In this document: positions 899-37,376 of the stretch, piece by piece
How positions within the stretch are numbered: the stretch's first letter is position 1
Layout: each line of letters starts with the position of its first letter
DNA from: Acidobacteriota bacterium
GTDB lineage: Bacteria; Acidobacteriota; JAAYUB01
Direction of reading: 5' to 3'
Length of the DNA stretch: 37,484 nucleotides
Assembly: GCA_016935015.1 (NCBI GenBank)
Contig: JAFGRT010000109.1
Location: 1 to 37,484 of the forward strand
Program-made: the position numbers and the translations under genes
Notes under the pieces: generated by a model
The model's database searches: none
Seen by the model: only the letters and a program-made list of their open reading frames with translations
What the model was told of the DNA's origin: nothing

Positions 899-2929
899 AT
901 GAGAAACAAGCTGCTTCTTTTCTGCTGGCTGCCGATACTGATACTGGCAGCCGGCGAAGCGATGTTTGCCCTCGAGAACGATGACCCGGAAGAACTGCTG
1001 CGCCGGCTCCGCCAGGACATCCGCCGTCACGGCTACCGCTTTCAGGTGGCGGACAATCCGGCGCTGGATTATCCCTTGTCCACCTTGTGCGGCCTGGTGG
1101 AGCCGCCCGACTGGCGGGAAGGCGCCCGTTTCGTCGATTTCACCGCCAAGGAAGAGCTGCCCGCCGCCTTTGACTGGCGGGACCTGAACGGCTGCACTCC
1201 CGTCAAGAACCAGGGCAATTGCGGCAGCTGCTGGGCGTTCTCCACCGTGGGCGGCCTGGAGTGTCAAATCCTGCTGCTCGACCTGATGGCAGAGGACCTG
1301 TCGGAGCAGTTCCTGGTCAGCTGCGACACCAGCAACAGCGGTTGCAGCGGTGGCTGGTTCGCCCATGATTTCCACATCACCGAAGGCGCCGTCCGGGAGA
1401 GTTGCTTCCCGTACACCGCCGCCGACGATCCCTGCATCGAGACCTGCCCGCGCCCTTATTATGCGGAATCCTGGGCCTACATCGGCAATTCCTACAGTGT
1501 CCCCAGCATCAACGCCATCAAGCAGGCCATTTACGACTACGGTCCCATCTGCGCGGCCGTGGCCGCATCCAGCTCCTTTCACGCCTATTCCGGGGGCGTC
1601 TACGACGCCGACGACTCCACCGTGATCAACCACGCCATCATGCTGGTGGGTTGGGATGACGCCGACGGCTGCTGGATCCTGCGCAATAGCTGGGGCGCCG
1701 GTTGGGGTGAAGACGGGTATATGCGGATCGCTTACGACTGCAACCGGGTTGGTTATGCCGCCAATTTCGTGACCTACGTGCCGCTGAATGCACCCCTCAT
1801 CGATCTCGACGATGTCCAGCCCGACTCCGGGGTCTCAGGAAATAACCGTCTGGACCCGGGCGAAACCGCCGAGCTGACGATTCTGCTCCTGAACGACGGC
1901 GCCGAGGTTTCGTCCGTCCAGGCCGTGCTCTCGAGCACCGATTCCTACGTCTCCTTCCCCGTGGCGCAGGCGGATTACGGGACGATCCCCCACGGCGAAA
2001 CCCGTGCCGGGCTGTGGCCTTTCCAGGTCACCGTGGCCGCGGACGTGCCAATGGAACACCAGGTCCAATTTCAGTTGGCCGTTTCGGCCGGCGGCAGCTA
2101 CGCCGTTGATCTTAGCTTTGCGCTGACGGCCCATTATTCCGGCATCCTGGTGCTGGATCTGGACGGCAACACCAACAGCGGCCCCGCCCTGGCCACCGCC
2201 CTGGAGAGCAACGGGCGTCCCGCTCATTACGCCACTTCCTACGACTGGAATGCGTTGTCGGATTTCGAAGCCGTGTTCCTGTGCCTGGGGATATACTCCC
2301 AGAACCATGTGCTGACCTCAAGCGAAGGGGATGCCCTGTCCGCCTATCTGGACGGGGGTGGCGTTCTCTATCTAGAGGGAGGCGACACGTGGGCCTTTGA
2401 CTCGGCCACCACCGTGCATTCTCGTTTCCATATCGACGGCACCGCCGATGGCACCAGCGATCTGTCCACCCAGCAGGGCCAAAGCGGCACGCTGTGGGAG
2501 GGCCTGGCCCTGGTCTATGATGGTGACAACAATTTCATCGATCATCTGGCCGCCACAGGTGACGGCCAGCTCATCTTCGCCAACAGTTCCCCGGCCTACG
2601 GGACCGCGGTGGCCCGGGACGCCGGCACCTATCGCACCATCGGCGCCTCGTTCGAATTCGGCGGCCTGGTGAACGGCGCCGGGGACAACACGCCAACCGG
2701 CGTCATGGCCAGGATCATGGAGTTTTTCGGCATCCATGCAACCGGCAGCGGCGACCTGGATGACAACGGCGTGCTTGATGCCGTGGATCTCGGCATCCTG
2801 GCTTCTTTTCTGGCCGGCAACAGCGACCAATTGCCCGGCGAATCGTCAAAGGCCGACTGCAACGGCAACGGGCAGGTCGAACTTCAGGATCTGGTGGTGC
2901 TGATCGAGATGGTCACGGGCAACCTTTGA
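899..2929 (+). CDS. Exported papain-family (C1A) cysteine protease with C-terminal dockerin
   Basis: A secreted cysteine peptidase of 676 residues. The signal peptide is MRNKLLLFCWLPILILAAGE followed by AMFA; the ATG at 899 is preferred over one at 887 because GGA at 889-891 is well spaced for it. A short propeptide (about residues 24-88) precedes the peptidase C1A domain (about 88-290) with Gln105, the active Cys111 in NCGSCWAF, His245 in INHAIMLVGW and Asn263 in RNSWGAGWG, so the catalytic set is complete. A COG1361/CARDB-like beta domain follows (about 300-415), then a Rossmann/glutamine-amidotransferase-like fold (about 417-610; ILVLDLDG start, YLDGGGVLYLEGG). Residues 618-676 form a type I dockerin with two calcium loops (DLDDNGVLDAVD and DCNGNGQVELQD). 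The dockerin implies docking to a cohesin, such as the one at 32940-37376. Protease identity is firm; the partner is inferred. Confidence 0.93.
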   Translation: MRNKLLLFCWLPILILAAGEAMFALENDDPEELLRRLRQDIRRHGYRFQVADNPALDYPLSTLCGLVEPPDWREGARFVDFTAKEELPAAFDWRDLNGCTPVKNQGNCGSCWAFSTVGGLECQILLLDLMAEDLSEQFLVSCDTSNSGCSGGWFAHDFHITEGAVRESCFPYTAADDPCIETCPRPYYAESWAYIGNSYSVPSINAIKQAIYDYGPICAAVAASSSFHAYSGGVYDADDSTVINHAIMLVGWDDADGCWILRNSWGAGWGEDGYMRIAYDCNRVGYAANFVTYVPLNAPLIDLDDVQPDSGVSGNNRLDPGETAELTILLLNDGAEVSSVQAVLSSTDSYVSFPVAQADYGTIPHGETRAGLWPFQVTVAADVPMEHQVQFQLAVSAGGSYAVDLSFALTAHYSGILVLDLDGNTNSGPALATALESNGRPAHYATSYDWNALSDFEAVFLCLGIYSQNHVLTSSEGDALSAYLDGGGVLYLEGGDTWAFDSATTVHSRFHIDGTADGTSDLSTQQGQSGTLWEGLALVYDGDNNFIDHLAATGDGQLIFANSSPAYGTAVARDAGTYRTIGASFEFGGLVNGAGDNTPTGVMARIMEFFGIHATGSGDLDDNGVLDAVDLGILASFLAGNSDQLPGESSKADCNGNGQVELQDLVVLIEMVTGNL

Positions 2930-27529: not shown

Positions 27530-27691
27530 TTTCCGATTCCCGTCAACCGGACCGTCGGCGAGGGGACGAATGGCCGGAATATCCTTGACCCCCGGCCGAT
27601 GTCGCCGCATCATATGGTTGAAGCCGGGCGGCACGCGGAAGGCCCCGCATCCCGGTGTTCCTCTTCCGGCAGCGAACATGAGGTAACCATC

Positions 27692-28792
27692 GTGAAGGAC
27701 AATTGGAGACGCTGGAAATTCATTCTGATCAGTCTGGTCATACTAACCGGTGCTCCTTTTCTCTATCAGCAGGACCGGAGCGCCGAAGAGACGGACCCGA
27801 CCCGGCGCATCACCACCAGCGTATCTCTCGTCTCCATCAATGTTGTGGTGCTGGACAAGTTCGGTTTTCCGGTTTCTGGTTTGAAAAAGGAGGATTTTAC
27901 GATCTTTGACGACGGTACCCCGCAAGACATAACCTTCTTCGCCGAAACGTCCGAACCGATGAGCGTCGTACTCATCATCGACTCCAGCGGAAGCACCTAC
28001 AAGAAGATCACCATGATCAAACAGGGCGCCATCGAATTCATCCGCCGCCTGCACGAATCGCGCCCCCGTGACCGGATCGCCGTTGTCAATTTCAACGATG
28101 ACATTTCCCTCATGGCCCCCTTCAGCACGTCCTGGCGGCAGAAGACCGCCCTGATCCAGGACCGCATCGATGCCATGGGCGGAACAGCGTTATACGACGC
28201 CCTCTATCTGACCAGTAAGGATATTCTCAATCAGATCAGCGGCCGGAAAACCGTGGTCCTTTTCACAGACGGCATCGACAACAAGAGCCTCAAGGATTTT
28301 AACGAGGCCTTCCAGTGGTCGCTGGCCACCGACGCCACTTTTCACATCCTGACCGTCGACAATCTCAACCAGGCCCTGACGGATGCCGGCCGGGATTATT
28401 ACGCCCTCTCGCGACGAAGTTTCTATGCTTACATGCAGGGGGAGGCTGCAAGCCGGGATGGTGTCATCGATCCCCAGTGGTCCCATGACATGCGACGGCA
28501 GTATTCCTCGCGTGATGTCCTGGAATTGGCCTACCGTCTCTCCTACCAGATGCTTCAACGGCTGGCCGTCACATCGGGCGGAATGTTCTTCAAGGTCGGC
28601 CAGTACGACGAACTGCCCGGCATTTACCGTAAAGTCGCCGCCGAGTTGCCCTATTACTACACCATCGGCTACCGGCCGGATTTTGAAAAAATGAAAGAGG
28701 GCGAATTCCACCAGATCGAGGTCCAGGTCTCCGACGCCGAGCTGACGCCGCGTTACCGCCGCGGCTACTATTATCGCCCCAACGCGAAATGA
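27692..28792 (+). CDS. Exported VWFA protein, acidobacterial type
   Basis: A 366-residue exported protein of the 'VWFA-related Acidobacterial domain' family. The GTG start at 27692 follows GAGGT; earlier in-frame starts lack a ribosome site. A signal anchor (WKFILISLVILTGAPFLY) precedes a beta module typical of the family (VSLVSINVVVLDKFGFPVSG, LKKEDFTIFDDGTPQDI) and a VWA domain with a complete MIDAS: DSSGS from Asp97, the Thr in MGGTALYDAL and the Asp in LFTDGIDN. The C-terminal stretch LPYYYTIGYRPDFEKMKEGE and YRRGYYYRPN closes the family pattern. Function is unknown; metal-dependent protein binding outside the cytoplasm is expected. It is the best lineage marker in the window. Confidence 0.93.
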   Translation: MKDNWRRWKFILISLVILTGAPFLYQQDRSAEETDPTRRITTSVSLVSINVVVLDKFGFPVSGLKKEDFTIFDDGTPQDITFFAETSEPMSVVLIIDSSGSTYKKITMIKQGAIEFIRRLHESRPRDRIAVVNFNDDISLMAPFSTSWRQKTALIQDRIDAMGGTALYDALYLTSKDILNQISGRKTVVLFTDGIDNKSLKDFNEAFQWSLATDATFHILTVDNLNQALTDAGRDYYALSRRSFYAYMQGEAASRDGVIDPQWSHDMRRQYSSRDVLELAYRLSYQMLQRLAVTSGGMFFKVGQYDELPGIYRKVAAELPYYYTIGYRPDFEKMKEGEFHQIEVQVSDAELTPRYRRGYYYRPNAK

Positions 28793-30902: not shown

Positions 30903-32321
30903 TCAGGATGACGGGGAGGCCTTGTTCTTGTGACCCAAGGCTGGCGAGAGATACTTGAGTATACCCCGAAAATACTTCGCCATCATACCTGGACGGAACA
31001 GGCCGGCCAGTAGTTGCACCAGACGCCGCGGCCGGGAATAGAAAGCGAGATAGGCCATGAAATAGAGCCACTTTTGGCGAGGGATGGAGATCTCCCGGGT
31101 CTCGATATGGGGGGTAGTTACGTCCATGGCGGTATCCAACAGCTGGGTACGCAGCCGCTGACGCCGGGTGATTTCAGCCAGTTCAGTGCCCGGATAGGGG
31201 GTAGCAAAGGCGAAAAAAGCATAGTCCAGATCGGAGCGGCGGGCATAACGGATGGTTTGCCAGACCTCCGCCACCGTCTCTCCCGGGAAACCGATAATAA
31301 AGGACCCATTGGTCGTGACGCCGTAACGACGGGCCAGACGGAGAAACTCCTCCACTTTTTCCAGCTGCAGTGCCTTGCGGATCAAGCGCTGGACCCGCGG
31401 ACTGCCCGACTCCACCCCGATGGTGATGGAATGTGTTCCCGCCTGGACCATGAGCCGCAATAAATCCTCGTTTACCCGATCGGCCCGAATGCCGTTGGGA
31501 AACTGCAGCCCCACCGTCATTCCCGACTCGATGATCCCCCGACAGATGGCCCGGGCCCGAGGCAGGTCCATGGTAAAATTGTCATCATAGATGAGAAACT
31601 CTCGCACCCCGTAGGTATCATACAGCAGGCGCATCTCGTGAAGGACATTTTCCGGCGAGCGGGGGCGGAAACGTTTGCCGAACAGGTCATGGCAGTATAT
31701 GCAGAGATAGGGACAGCCGCGGCTGGTGAATATCTGCATGGGATTGGGGTGACGGGTGGGGAAACCGGGGATCTCCATCCGAAAGTATTCCGCCATGGGA
31801 AAGAGGTGATAGGCGGGAAAGGGCAGATCATCCATGGCCGGGGATTGCCGGGCCGGCGGATTGTGGACGATGGTTTCACCCCGCCGATAGGACAGGGCCG
31901 GGATCAGAACCGGATCGCCGCCCTGCTCCAGGGTGTCCGCCAATCCCGTCAGTGGGAATTCGCCTTCCCCGCGCACCACATAATCAACAAAATCCAGTTG
32001 CAGCGTCTCGTCAGGCGTGATGGACGGATGAGCGCCGCCGAAAACCACCGGCATGTCGGGAGCTCTTTCCCGGAGTACCCGCCCGGCCTGACATGCACCG
32101 CGATACTGGACGCCCATACAGCTGATTCCGGCCAGACCGAATTCATGGGTGGCCAGGACTCGCCGCAACTCGGTCGGCCAGTCCCGGTACAATACCAGGT
32201 CCAACGGGACCGGTGTATGGCCAGCCTGCGCCAGCACCGCCGCCAGATAGCCGAGCCCGATGGGAAAGCCGGCGGGGCGGTGGTGGGCATCATAGTGAGG
32301 ACGTAACAGCAGGACCTTCAT
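30903..32321 (-). CDS. B12-binding radical SAM protein
   Basis: A 472-residue enzyme of the BchE/HpnP-type superfamily. A cobalamin-binding domain comes first (residues about 1-150: MKVLLLRPHYDAHHRPAGFP, GLGYLAAVLAQAGHTPVPLD, VVFGGAHPSITPDE) and then the radical SAM core, with the cluster cysteines in TSRGCPYLCIYCHDLF near residues 201-208 and the SAM block ITIGVESGSPRVQRLIRK. The C-terminal part is helical with FMAYLAFYSRPRRLVQLLAG, possibly membrane-associated. ATG 32321 follows GGGAG; the in-frame extension to 32459 lacks conserved features. Such enzymes carry out methylations or ring rearrangements, often in lipid or natural-product pathways; the substrate cannot be told. It converges with the methyltransferase gene. 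Confidence 0.9.
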   Translation of the reverse strand: MKVLLLRPHYDAHHRPAGFPIGLGYLAAVLAQAGHTPVPLDLVLYRDWPTELRRVLATHEFGLAGISCMGVQYRGACQAGRVLRERAPDMPVVFGGAHPSITPDETLQLDFVDYVVRGEGEFPLTGLADTLEQGGDPVLIPALSYRRGETIVHNPPARQSPAMDDLPFPAYHLFPMAEYFRMEIPGFPTRHPNPMQIFTSRGCPYLCIYCHDLFGKRFRPRSPENVLHEMRLLYDTYGVREFLIYDDNFTMDLPRARAICRGIIESGMTVGLQFPNGIRADRVNEDLLRLMVQAGTHSITIGVESGSPRVQRLIRKALQLEKVEEFLRLARRYGVTTNGSFIIGFPGETVAEVWQTIRYARRSDLDYAFFAFATPYPGTELAEITRRQRLRTQLLDTAMDVTTPHIETREISIPRQKWLYFMAYLAFYSRPRRLVQLLAGLFRPGMMAKYFRGILKYLSPALGHKNKASPSS

Positions 32322-32455
32322 CGGTCTCCCGTCTCCGGTAATTCGGCTGATTATACTCCAGGGACCGGGCGGTGACAACGTCCACCTCGCTTGTCCCTCG
32401 GGTGGGCGAACAGCTTTATCTTCCGGCCGGGGTGCTGACTGGCCGGTAACTGGCA

Positions 32456-32872
32456 TCACCAGTCAGGGAAAGGCTTTCGGCGCCAGGTGAGACAAATTCG
32501 TTGGTATTCGGCTTCGAGCATCTGATCTTCCACCGGCAGGGAAGCGGCCCTTTGCTCGATATGCTTGAACCGGCGGGCCATCAGGAAAATGAATGTATTG
32601 ACCAGGATCAGAATCACAATATGCAGAAAGTCCAGCCGTTCCGCCAGAATTCCGTAGATCATCAGCACCAGCGCACCGCCCAGCAGAAGCAGCTGGACCA
32701 GGGCCAGGTACATCTGTTCCTTGACCATCTGTTTGAATTGATTGAGTTCACGTGATGTCGTAATGGCCGGTACGCCGGCCAGAAAGGTCTCGATGCGGCC
32801 CTTGCCCCACCACCCGTTCAGAACCCCCAAGATATTGAGCAACAGAATGATCACGAACAAGGCATCGAGCAT
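32456..32872 (-). CDS. Small membrane protein of unknown function
   Basis: A 138-residue protein I do not recognise. Three hydrophobic segments are seen: LDALFVIILLLNILGVLNGW, YLALVQLLLLGGALVLMIYG and FLHIVILILVNTFIFLMARR. A helical charged tail follows (RFKHIEQRAASLPVEDQMLE) with a final WRRKPFPDW. Two adjacent ATG codons occur; the second (32872) is better spaced from AAGGAGG. The gene stands between the radical SAM gene (134 bases) and the large repeat protein (67 bases), all on the same strand. Confidence 0.75.
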   Translation of the reverse strand: MLDALFVIILLLNILGVLNGWWGKGRIETFLAGVPAITTSRELNQFKQMVKEQMYLALVQLLLLGGALVLMIYGILAERLDFLHIVILILVNTFIFLMARRFKHIEQRAASLPVEDQMLEAEYQRICLTWRRKPFPDW

Positions 32873-32939
32873 CATCGCCTCCTTACTCCGCGCTGCGAAA
32901 CGGTCGCCCAATCACCGGATGGGCCCAGCGGCTGCAGAT

Positions 32940-35900
32940 TTATTCAACCGTCGGATTTTCCTCAATGCGATATGCGCACATCATACCACACACGTCGGGC
33001 GGAGTGTCGCTCCACGTCCGTCCGCCGATTGATGAATTCAGCCGGATCTCGACGAACAGCACCTGCCCACCCGTCACCGGCCGGGCGCCGGCCATGACCA
33101 CCCGCCAGAGATTCTCCCGGCGGACGACCCCCAGCGACCAGTCATCCGTCAACAAGCTGCGTTCGAAAGCCAGGCTCCAGTCTTCCCGCACTTCCAGAAC
33201 CATCTCCCACGCGGTGACTCCCCGGTTGGCGTCCAGCACGACCGGCACGCGCCAGACAAAATCTCTCTCGTTGTACAGATCTGATGTGGCCATGCGCAAC
33301 CGGGCGTCCGTATCGGCGATAGACTGTTCGTCCAGAGGGAAACCGGTCCATTCGCCGCTGTCGCAGCGCCGGACCCAGGCGGCGTCCAGGGCCGTGATCT
33401 CGCCGTCACCGGTCACATCGGCGGCGCAGAGGGGAAGCGCGTCGGGCGGCGAACCTTCCAAAACAAACGTCTCGATCAGCTGGGCATCGTAGACCGTGAC
33501 GGCCCCGTCACCGGAAACGTCGCCGGCGATGCATTCCTCACCGAGGCATATCCTGGTGGATGCCTTCACTGCAGCCGATACGTCTCTGTTGATCCGGAAG
33601 CGGGACAGCTCCATCCTTGCGCAGTCCCGGCCCAGCCCGGCGGCACCGGCGGCCAGCAGGATGTTCAGCAGCCGGCCCCGGTCACGGAGCGGACGGATCC
33701 CCTCCGCGCGGATGACCAGTCCGCCGGATTCCCACTCGCCCCGTACGTTCCATCCTTCGGACAACGTACCCTCCGGCCAGAGATCCTTCACCTGCAGTAA
33801 CTCCGGATCGTACGCCAGGGTAAATTCCCAGGCCGTGACAGTCCAGGCCTCCGGCAGGACATCCAGCGGTGCGCTGAGCGAAACGGGCAAAATCACTTCT
33901 TCCCCCGCAGGTATCTCCAGGTTTTCCGGAAGCGTCACCACCAGGGGTGGCCCTTGTGGCCCGGCGGGCGGAATAGCTCTGATATCCTCGCTCAGACCGT
34001 AGTCGCTGAAAACCGAGATCCGCAGTTCCGTGGCGGATAGGAGCCGCTCGGACGTCAGCCCGCGAATCCGGTATTGCCCGGTCGGATATTGATGTAGGGC
34101 CGCCCTGAGATCCGTCAGGGAAACATCTTTGGGCGACGGGAACCAGAGCCCGCCGGTCTGGCGGGCCAACTGCTCCAGCGGATCGACGGCTACCGATCCG
34201 GTACCCACGACATGAACAGCGATGCGACTGTCGGCGGCCAGCCGGACCACATCGGCCATGGAATGGCGGCTGTGGGTGTCTCGACCGTCGCTCAGCACGA
34301 CAACATGGCGGCTGCCCGGATAAGGGCCCAGGCTCTCCAGGGCCTGGACCAGGGCGTCATGCAGACGTGTGAATCCACCGGAGGGGAGAAGGTCCAGCCG
34401 GGTCTCCAGCCGCTGTCGGTCTACCGTCCATAAAGAGATCGGCCGGGCAGTCGCCGTGTTCACCAGAGCCCAGCGATCCTCCGGGGCGCCGTGGCTGAGG
34501 AGTTCCCGCATCAACTGCCGGCCCTCCGTGAGAGTGGAAGCGGATATGCTGGCGCTGGTGTCGAAACAGATAACGCCCGTCACCGGTGCATCCCCGCTGA
34601 GCGGTTCGATGTTGAACGGTGTTTCCACCCCATCCAGGGCCACACTGACCTCTTCCTGCCGCAAGCCCTGCCGGGCTTGGCCGGCGCCATGGTATGCCGA
34701 AAACACAACCTCCGCCGATCCACCCGGCGTAAAAGCGAGGCGATTGATATCCAGGCCGGGTTCCGTGGACGGGACCGTCCGCACCAAGCGGAACGGATAA
34801 CGGCTGCCGGACGGCGGAATCTCGAATTGCAAGTAGTGCGGACCTCGCCTCCGGGCCACCATGATTTCCGGCGTACCTGGCTCCGCCACGGCGCCTGCAC
34901 GTTCGGCACCAGACTCGCCGGCCGTTTTTTCCCAACCGGGCCAACACCATTCCCCACCGGATTTTCCCGGCAGAACCAGCGGCCTGCCCATGCCCATCCG
35001 CCCCGCCACCAGCATACGCGTCAGTTCCTCCGTTGTCGGCAACCGGTATCCGTCGGCCGATACATCGCAAAATATGCCGGTTTCACGGAAATTGTGACGA
35101 TGGATACAGCCTTCCCCCTTCGCCGTCGCATAGTAACAGGGTTGCCACCCCCTTTTCCGAGAGAGCTGGTTGGCATACCAGACCGCCTCTCGCCACGTAG
35201 CCCGGGCCAGAAATGCATCGCCAGCCGGTTCCGTCACCCTCGGCGGGACGGTCGGAACGACAGCAGGCGAAGGGTTATCCGGGATCTGGTTGGCACTCAG
35301 CGGGGCTTCCATGACAGCAATATCCCGAGGCAGCAACCGGTAACCGGCGTTTATCGCTTCATGTAGTTCACCGACACCGCCCATCGCCGAGAGGATCGGC
35401 ACCCGGCCGGTGGCCAGAAACCGCAACTCTCCCAGCCGGTGATCCGTGTCATAGATTACACCGGTATTGCCGGCCGCCGGCAGAACAGGCCGGGTTAGAA
35501 TGACGCCGCCCTCGCCCACGGTGACCAGCTGACGGCCATTGGTGGCGATTTCATACAGGTTCGTTTCCGCGGGCGACGGTAGCTGGAGCCAGGTCCGGCC
35601 GTCGAGACTGGCAAAGACGATCCCTTCGTAGCCGACAGCCCACCACTGCTCTTCTGACCAGCAAATTCCCTCCAAATGATTGCGACGACCGAGTCCAAAA
35701 GCCGCCCAGTGACATCCGTCCCCGCTGCACGTCACCACTCCACCTTCGCCCACGGCCGCGTACATGGTATCTCCGGCGGCCACGGCATACAGATGGTTGG
35801 GGGTGCCCGCTTCATGGCGTCGCCACTGCCGGCCATCCCGGCTATGCAACAAGGTGCCGTTCCGCCCGGTGGCCACCCAGCCCTGCGGCCCATCCGTCAC

Positions 35901-37376
35901 GGCATACAAATCCTGGGTGGTGTCCGTGGCACATTCCGTCCAGTTGACACCATCGACACTGTGATAGATCCGGCCCCATTCGCCGGCGGCGAGCCAGGAG
36001 TGGCCATCGGTTCCGAGGCCATATAGATTGCGGGGTATTCCCGCCTCGATTTGCCGCCATTCCCGGCCGTCCTCGCTCCGCAGCACCAGTCCGTCATCGC
36101 CCACGGCCAGCAGGATCCGGCCGTCGTATTCGACGGCCCGCAGCCGGCGGTTCACGCTGACCGCCAGCGACCGCCACGAGAGGGCATCCGCCGCGCTCGC
36201 CCACAAGCCGTCCCGGCCGACGGCGATAAAACCGTCCGGACCGTCCGTCACGCTTTCCAGCTCGCCGGGCCGGTCCCCTGTCGGCCCGGCCCATTCCTCG
36301 CCGGAGTCACTGCCGAGGATAGTCCCGTAGTAGCCCACCGCCTGCCATCGTCCCTCGGCATACATCACACCGCTCAGTCCGGCGGTAGTCGGCACGGCGA
36401 TATTCTCCCATGGCCCGTCGCCGGTGCGGCTGAGCATCGTTCCACCAAAGCCTACGGTTATATACCGCCCCGCGGCGAAATGAACGGCGTATAGGTCCCG
36501 TCGGACTACCGGTGGATGGTGTTGCCAGTCGTTGCCATCGGGGCTGGAAACAATCAGGCCGCCATAACCTACGGCCACCATTCCCTGCGTACCGGCACAC
36601 ACGGCATACAGGTCGCTTCGTCCGTGCATCTCAAAGTTACGCCGTTGCCAGATCTCACCGTCGGTGCTGGTCAGGATCAGCCCGTCGGCTCCCACGATCA
36701 CCCAACCGGCTGCGTCGTGCGCGATTCCATACAATGTTGCGGCGACGCCGGCGTCCACGTTTGTCCAGGATTCTGCATCCGGGCTGCGCAGAATCACCCC
36801 GGCCTCACCCACGGCCCAGAAATGGTCGGCCGCCCAGATGACGTAGTAGAGCGTCCGCGCCGTCGGGGGGATGACAGCCGTCCATTCACCGGCATCCCGG
36901 CTGATTAGCACGGTGCCCTCATTTCCAACGATCACCAGCCGATCCCCGTTGCTGGCCAGGCTGTTAAGGGAATTGCGGGTCCCCGATGCACCGCGCCGCC
37001 ATGAGCATCCTTCCAGGCTGGTCAGGATCGTTCCCCGGCGTCCCACAGCCACATAATGTCCGTGAAAATGCCCGATAGCCCGCAAATGATTCCCCTGGGG
37101 CTGCGGCTGGATCCAATGCCAGGGGTCCAGGCCGCACTGGCGATAGATAAACCGCCGGGCCGCGAAAGGGAAGGAGTCCGCATCTTCCACCGCCGCCGTG
37201 CGGACGGCGGCGGTCAGAGTGGAAAGGCAAAGTGCGAAAGAAACACTCCATAGTAAAGGATGGAAAAGGAACAGCCTATGGACCTCCGGCCGGCCGGGAC
37301 CATGGCGGCGGTGGATTTGACGTTCCGGCATCTTGCCGTTTGAACAAGACAGGAGAAAGACATCGGCGGTGCTCAT
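32940..37376 (-). CDS. Very large exported protein: BNR repeats, FGE-like, VWA, cohesin-like and dockerin domains
   Basis: Up to 1478 residues. The start may be ATG 37376 or, with a more usual signal peptide (LFLFHPLLWSVSFALCLSTL), ATG 37331. Residues about 97-668 hold 14 repeats of about 42 residues of the form LYAV...G..VAVG..G.IL.S.DG..W, as in BNR/Ycf48 propellers. Residues about 735-865 resemble an FGE-sulfatase domain (WREAVWYANQLSRKRGW, DGYRLPTTEELTRM, FRLVRT). A VWA domain (about 930-1105) has an intact MIDAS (DTSAS, Thr in GGFTRLHDAL, LSDGRD). A cohesin-like domain (about 1150-1262; TAWEFTLAYDPELLQVKDLW) precedes a type I dockerin (about 1282-1342; DVSGDGAVTVYD, DVTGDGEITALD) and a second cohesin-like segment. 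No catalytic site is evident; a surface scaffold or sensor of protein assembly is likely. Confidence 0.85.
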   Translation of the reverse strand: MSTADVFLLSCSNGKMPERQIHRRHGPGRPEVHRLFLFHPLLWSVSFALCLSTLTAAVRTAAVEDADSFPFAARRFIYRQCGLDPWHWIQPQPQGNHLRAIGHFHGHYVAVGRRGTILTSLEGCSWRRGASGTRNSLNSLASNGDRLVIVGNEGTVLISRDAGEWTAVIPPTARTLYYVIWAADHFWAVGEAGVILRSPDAESWTNVDAGVAATLYGIAHDAAGWVIVGADGLILTSTDGEIWQRRNFEMHGRSDLYAVCAGTQGMVAVGYGGLIVSSPDGNDWQHHPPVVRRDLYAVHFAAGRYITVGFGGTMLSRTGDGPWENIAVPTTAGLSGVMYAEGRWQAVGYYGTILGSDSGEEWAGPTGDRPGELESVTDGPDGFIAVGRDGLWASAADALSWRSLAVSVNRRLRAVEYDGRILLAVGDDGLVLRSEDGREWRQIEAGIPRNLYGLGTDGHSWLAAGEWGRIYHSVDGVNWTECATDTTQDLYAVTDGPQGWVATGRNGTLLHSRDGRQWRRHEAGTPNHLYAVAAGDTMYAAVGEGGVVTCSGDGCHWAAFGLGRRNHLEGICWSEEQWWAVGYEGIVFASLDGRTWLQLPSPAETNLYEIATNGRQLVTVGEGGVILTRPVLPAAGNTGVIYDTDHRLGELRFLATGRVPILSAMGGVGELHEAINAGYRLLPRDIAVMEAPLSANQIPDNPSPAVVPTVPPRVTEPAGDAFLARATWREAVWYANQLSRKRGWQPCYYATAKGEGCIHRHNFRETGIFCDVSADGYRLPTTEELTRMLVAGRMGMGRPLVLPGKSGGEWCWPGWEKTAGESGAERAGAVAEPGTPEIMVARRRGPHYLQFEIPPSGSRYPFRLVRTVPSTEPGLDINRLAFTPGGSAEVVFSAYHGAGQARQGLRQEEVSVALDGVETPFNIEPLSGDAPVTGVICFDTSASISASTLTEGRQLMRELLSHGAPEDRWALVNTATARPISLWTVDRQRLETRLDLLPSGGFTRLHDALVQALESLGPYPGSRHVVVLSDGRDTHSRHSMADVVRLAADSRIAVHVVGTGSVAVDPLEQLARQTGGLWFPSPKDVSLTDLRAALHQYPTGQYRIRGLTSERLLSATELRISVFSDYGLSEDIRAIPPAGPQGPPLVVTLPENLEIPAGEEVILPVSLSAPLDVLPEAWTVTAWEFTLAYDPELLQVKDLWPEGTLSEGWNVRGEWESGGLVIRAEGIRPLRDRGRLLNILLAAGAAGLGRDCARMELSRFRINRDVSAAVKASTRICLGEECIAGDVSGDGAVTVYDAQLIETFVLEGSPPDALPLCAADVTGDGEITALDAAWVRRCDSGEWTGFPLDEQSIADTDARLRMATSDLYNERDFVWRVPVVLDANRGVTAWEMVLEVREDWSLAFERSLLTDDWSLGVVRRENLWRVVMAGARPVTGGQVLFVEIRLNSSIGGRTWSDTPPDVCGMMCAYRIEENPTVE
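35372..37090 (-). repeat. 14 tandem protein repeats of about 42 codons (BNR/Ycf48 type)
   Basis: Each unit is about 126 bases and encodes the same pattern: a hydrophobic strand (LYAV), a short turn, a second strand ending VAVG, then GTILxSxDG and a Trp. The units differ at nearly half their residues, so they are old duplications rather than recent copies. Fourteen blades would make two seven-bladed propellers. Confidence 0.85.

Follow-up and report, generated by a model that had tools for sequence, protein, structure and literature searches.

The window analysed here, a 37,484-nucleotide stretch of DNA from an Acidobacteriota bacterium, comprises one entire contig. A reading frame on its minus strand (32,940-37,376) is open over 1478 codons and encodes a multi-domain product of 1478 residues, and the contig ends about 110 bases upstream of the start of this gene. 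Either M1 or M16 may serve as the start codon. Basic residues followed by a hydrophobic stretch near residues 41-58 fit a signal peptide, and the N-terminus on its own suggests that the protein is probably exported or secreted. We found no anchoring element in the protein. At 30,903-32,911, directly downstream on the minus strand, lie a 151-residue open reading frame with no family match and, overlapping it by 4 bases, a gene for a B12-binding radical SAM protein; they could form an operon with the 1478-residue protein's gene.

Residues ~90-635 (35,472-37,109, minus strand) were assigned to propeller-type repeats of the BNR/YCF48-like kind. The NCBIfam model NF045728 matched this region in four stretches (E = 1e-20, under the NCBIfam cut-off), PF23366 of Pfam also matched it, and a motif scan counted seven repeats. 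An incomplete FGE/SUMF1-like region followed at residues ~720-870 (34,767-35,219, minus strand), where phmmer gave a match to residues 723-795 and where likeness by eye was seen to L046, an FGE-sulfatase/dockerin protein of the same genome. Residues ~680-790 matched many open reading frames of this genome, the same region of L046 among them, and the Pfam FGE family had no match in the 1478-residue frame. A von Willebrand factor A (vWA) domain was found at residues ~930-1090 (34,107-34,589, minus strand) with Pfam VWA (E = 5e-8) and with the NCBIfam family acidobact_VWFA (E = 5e-13, under its cut-off). This part of the protein resembles many open reading frames in its own genome and in relatives, and a separate VWA protein of the acidobact_VWFA family, passing the cut-off of that model, is encoded in the window at 27,599-28,792 on the plus strand.

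Cohesin and dockerin modules of the 1478-residue protein

The C-terminal third of the protein had been described in a preliminary description as a cohesin-like domain, a type I dockerin with two calcium loops and a second cohesin-like segment. The dockerin occupies residues 1284-1337 (33,366-33,527, minus strand), and PF00404 matched it well above the cut-off (E = 1e-10; 41.7 bits against a cut-off of 22.9). Loop aspartates are present at positions 1286, 1297, 1320 and 1331, positions that hardly vary among the genome's dockerin proteins. An AlphaFold2 (AF2) model, calculated from an alignment of 28 dockerins, had pLDDT values of 87-95, and solved dockerins were the first and second matches of this model in Foldseek (4uyq_B, TMt 0.79, 40% identity). 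Profile match, loop residues and predicted structure thus confirmed the assignment of this segment as a canonical two-loop type I dockerin.

The first cohesin (residues ~1137-1276; 33,549-33,968, minus strand) did not pass the Pfam cut-off. PF00963 scored 15.7 bits on the protein and 19.8 bits in the genome-wide search, against a cut-off of 24.1, and a plain PF00963 search (E 0.001) therefore calls the genome free of cohesins. Used as a single query against genomes of the phylum, however, this segment matched loci in which Pfam, too, recognises a cohesin (G290:C68, G290:C6 and G156:C22), and a lineage-specific profile made from those loci (A1) recovered the segment in turn. The AF2 model of the domain (pLDDT about 67-91) had solved cohesins as its top matches in the PDB (2vo8, 2xdh and 1aoh by Foldseek), with a non-cellulosomal Archaeoglobus module included among the matches; the alignment behind the model held cohesin homologues, so that fold and homology do not count as independent lines of evidence. 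Homology and predicted fold together provide good support for a diverged but real cohesin, as had been proposed, with a putative calcium-dependent binding of dockerins.

Evidence for the second segment (residues ~1355-1478; 32,943-33,314, minus strand) was mixed. Alignment with the cohesin profile by hhalign was collinear with a probability of 78% (P = 1.9e-5), the segment has the VTAWE motif and a GxRP...G stretch in common with cohesin 1, and in shuffle tests only 1 of 3000 shuffled sequences scored as high against a profile that contained cohesin 1 and 5 of 3000 against one that did not. Plain pairwise alignment with cohesin 1, on the other hand, was not significant (428 of 5000 shuffles reached the score), and a search of the phylum's genomes with this segment alone returned matches at chance level only. 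A first AF2 model showed a similar order of strands at pLDDT 50-72, and a second, calculated with no homologues for this segment, gave a beta-sandwich of low confidence for which Foldseek returned nothing specific. Structure prediction, which had been suggested as a check on both beta segments, therefore yielded a cohesin fold for the first and a generic sandwich, at low pLDDT and with no cohesin-specific match, for the second. We consider the second segment a probable, moderately supported diverged duplicate of a cohesin.

The dockerin-bearing proteins of the genome and the C1A protease

The genome-wide search with PF00963 and PF00404 that had also been suggested gave 51 dockerin matches and no cohesin above the Pfam cut-off. 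Among the 52 dockerin proteins collected from the genome, 46 carry the module within 20 residues of the C-terminus, a client-like placement. At least 14 are peptidases (five of family C25, three C1, two trypsin-like, and M14, M28, S15 and C39-like members); the others include a penicillin amidase, a beta-lactamase-fold protein and an amidohydrolase. One dockerin protein carries a CBM96, and no glycoside hydrolase family matched any of the 52 at E <= 1e-4. The C25 peptidases, of the gingipain family, end in dockerins and are encoded at L035, L037, L041, L133 and L138. Two proteins have the dockerin at the N-terminus, one a multihaem cytochrome-like protein (L047:2685-4433, contig C199) and the other a protein in which the dockerin precedes some 1100 residues that include an amidohydrolase match (L128:1-3579, contig C39).

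Neither Pfam nor the lineage-specific profile A1 found a second cohesin protein in this genome, whose assembly is 97% complete and consists of 237 contigs. The 1478-residue protein is the only candidate receptor detectable in the genome at the sensitivity used. We rejected a reading as a cellulosome, there being one cohesin protein with two modules instead of three or more cohesins, and no glycoside hydrolase or CBM3 on the dockerin proteins. The peptidase-rich set fits the earlier suggestion of a putative assembly that degrades protein rather than cellulose.

The dockerin of the cohesin protein itself differs from this set. It is internal, followed by a tail of 145 residues, and so belongs to the 6 of 52 that depart from C-terminal placement. 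In similarity to the others it ranked 47th of 52, and positions 10-11 of its loop 1 are V-Y where the other dockerins of the genome mostly have A-A or A-V. Such an outlier is expected if the dockerins of scaffold and clients differ.

The window also encodes a secreted C1A (papain-family) protease at 887-2,929 on the plus strand, a frame of 680 residues whose start may instead lie at 899. The Pfam family Peptidase_C1 matched residues 91-292 (E = 2e-52). As had been observed earlier, the protein ends in a type I dockerin (residues 622-675; 2,750-2,911, plus strand; PF00404, E = 1e-5), an ordinary member of the genome's set (39th of 52 in similarity). The preliminary description took this dockerin to match the cohesin protein, which would make the two a private pair in which the 1478-residue protein specifically recruits this protease. 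Both genes do lie on one 37 kb contig and both products carry a dockerin, but ~30 kb separates the genes, which are on opposite strands, and the genome encodes a minimum of two further C1A proteases and some 50 further dockerin proteins elsewhere. We saw no sign of a private pair, and given the distance and strands of the genes and the many other dockerin and C1A proteins we rejected that pairing as very improbable. Recruitment of the protease may occur if the protein is a general adaptor for dockerin proteins.

Cohesins and dockerins in related genomes

Three genomes of the same family (G001-G003) contain dockerins (13, 20 and 17) and no cohesin that could be detected, an absence that is provisional, since each of the two cohesin profiles (Pfam and A1) misses cohesins found by the other. 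Two genomes of the same order have dockerins as well (19 and 12), together with one or two cohesin proteins of another architecture. Given the three same-family genomes, dockerins may also act without a cohesin, and a need of the present genome's dockerins for this scaffold cannot be assumed. This leads to the main alternative to an assembly, in which the dockerins would be cohesin-independent C-terminal calcium-binding modules that stabilise the protein, retain it at the surface or interact with some other partner, and the cohesins would be ordinary beta-sandwich spacers of the kind seen beside acidobacterial secretins. PF00963 matched in 169 of 297 genomes of the phylum Acidobacteriota, and cohesins there often lie C-terminal of secretin domains, a setting unrelated to enzyme docking; two single-cohesin proteins that we checked (L057 and L064) are type II/III family secretins with the cohesin at the C-terminus. 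Positions 10-11 of loop 1, similar but not uniform across the dockerins of the genome under study, point the same way. However, several unrelated proteins of the phylum pair a cohesin and a dockerin in one polypeptide, which would be unexpected if the two never interacted, and the cohesin-free state of the sister genomes is not firm. We regard this alternative as a serious contender, although on balance we doubt it.

The chains in which the two modules occur together have the order cohesin-dockerin in L055 and L118, dockerin-cohesin in L116 and L117, and cohesin-dockerin-cohesin in L115. A further cohesin-dockerin-cohesin chain, L068 (G290:C68), was recognised by eye from a dockerin-like repeat between its two cohesins. 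The region between the cohesins of L068 comprises a carboxypeptidase-regulatory-like domain and two copies of the dockerin-like repeat SFDAALVAQHVVGI, for which the dockerin profile gave no match. An orthologue of the whole 1478-residue protein was not found in six genomes of the class or in a scan of named genomes; searching the six genomes of the class with the FGE-vWA part returned paralogous FGE-like and vWA proteins, none of the same architecture.

Chains of this kind also bear on a second alternative, that the cohesin and dockerin of the 1478-residue protein bind each other, either as a clasp or in a head-to-tail polymer, with the dockerins of the proteases irrelevant to them. The modules are all contained in a stretch of ~340 residues, L115 repeats their order, cohesin-dockerin tandems occur in L055 and L118, and the protein's own dockerin differs from the client-like set, as that of a private partner might. 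On the other hand, only ~6-7 residues link the last strand of cohesin 1 to the dockerin, a spacing also seen in L055 and L118, and so short a linker would probably bar the dockerin from folding back onto the binding face of its own cohesin 1. No interface could be read in the AF2 models (pTM 0.43-0.48). The idea put forward earlier, that the protein could polymerise head-to-tail through its own dockerin, found no support, this dockerin being an outlier of the genome's set; an outlying position is still compatible with self-binding, but we judge a clasp or polymer to be distinctly unlikely.

A putative adaptor for dockerin-tagged proteins

A lone cohesin protein, a peptidase-rich and client-like set of dockerin proteins, and the arrangement of the modules fit an adaptor that gathers dockerin-tagged proteins. 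We tentatively propose, with a confidence that falls somewhat short of even, that the 1478-residue protein may be a secreted two-socket adaptor, or mini-scaffold, for secreted peptidases and other proteins that bear dockerin tags. The propeller, FGE-like and vWA part would sit on a surface, a matrix or a substrate. One or two cohesins would act as calcium-dependent sockets for the C-terminal dockerins of proteins secreted by the same cell, and the clients would include many peptidases (C25, C1, trypsin-like, M14, M28, S15 and C39). The adaptor's own diverged dockerin, between the cohesins, could bind another receptor outside the detected set or could have become structural. In favour of an adaptor is the presence of cohesin(s) and a dockerin in one putatively exported protein together with dockerin-tagged peptidases in the same genome, as is the recurrence of neighbouring cohesins and dockerins in the phylum. 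Against it stand the poor ratio of two cohesins to ~50 clients, the moderate support for the second cohesin, the same-family genomes in which dockerins persist and no cohesin was detected, the failure to find an orthologue in six genomes of the class or among named genomes, and the lack of an identified anchor. The analysis shows the domain identities (that of the second cohesin as probable), a single cohesin protein at the sensitivity used and a dockerin set rich in peptidases; secretion, binding of clients, their co-assembly and the function of the adaptor are what we infer.

Comparable proteins have been described in other phyla. Limihaloglobus sulfuriphilus has a single Coh2-Doc1-Coh1 scaffoldin-like protein and 13 dockerin fusions in a presumably non-cellulolytic setting (PMC11557425). 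The likeness lies in a lone cohesin-dockerin-cohesin protein accompanied by dockerin-fusion proteins. In contrast to the present case, the organism belongs to the PVC phylum and has fewer clients, and the available account describes no propeller, FGE-like or vWA parts (PMC11557425). The 'planctosome' of freshwater Planctomycetes is a proposed peptidase-binding assembly of a dockerin-cohesin adaptor and dockerin-bearing peptidases (PMC6461901), which resembles the arrangement here in that the adaptor has both a cohesin and a dockerin and that the peptidases are dockerin-tagged, and differs, as the account presents it, in having clients of families M12B and M14 and, for anchoring, a distinct LTD protein that bears a cohesin. 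A cellulosome-like complex in Ca. Stygibacter (Cloacimonadota) is reported to have dockerin-tagged secreted peptidases including C25, as here, and S8, but its scaffoldin, as described, has 3755 residues with multiple cohesins, CBMs and a C-terminal cell-surface domain (PMC8542988), none of which was seen in the 1478-residue protein. Proteins of ANME archaea likewise hold a dockerin and several cohesins in one chain outside cellulolysis, but are described with up to five cohesins and with clients such as ABC-transporter binding proteins (PMC9012536). The adaptor scaffoldins of clostridia also combine cohesin and dockerin, but they are parts of cellulosomes, in which the clients are glycoside hydrolases and anchors attach to the cell wall (PMC11557425).

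As far as these accounts extend, no binding test is described for the Limihaloglobus, planctosome, Ca. Stygibacter or ANME assemblies (PMC11557425, PMC6461901, PMC8542988 and PMC9012536). The protein studied here is a further case of an already described, functionally open type, with the same domain order occurring elsewhere in Acidobacteriota. A wider reading, which we hold to be rather unlikely, is that a two-socket protein with a divergent plug of its own organises ~50 secreted proteins, many of them peptidases. Acidobacteriota would then have a minimal surface system built of one scaffold and many proteases, which would function as a counterpart of the cellulosome without being one.

The role of non-cellulosomal cohesins and dockerins has been an open question since the two were catalogued. 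With ~50 dockerin proteins, of which at least 14 are peptidases, and a single detectable cohesin protein, the genome offers a small, testable system, and the sister genomes that have dockerins and no detectable cohesin sharpen the choice between an assembly and a cohesin-independent role. If the sole cohesin protein binds the client dockerins, the organism would have a protease-organising assembly; if it does not, its dockerins would have a role that is independent of cohesins.
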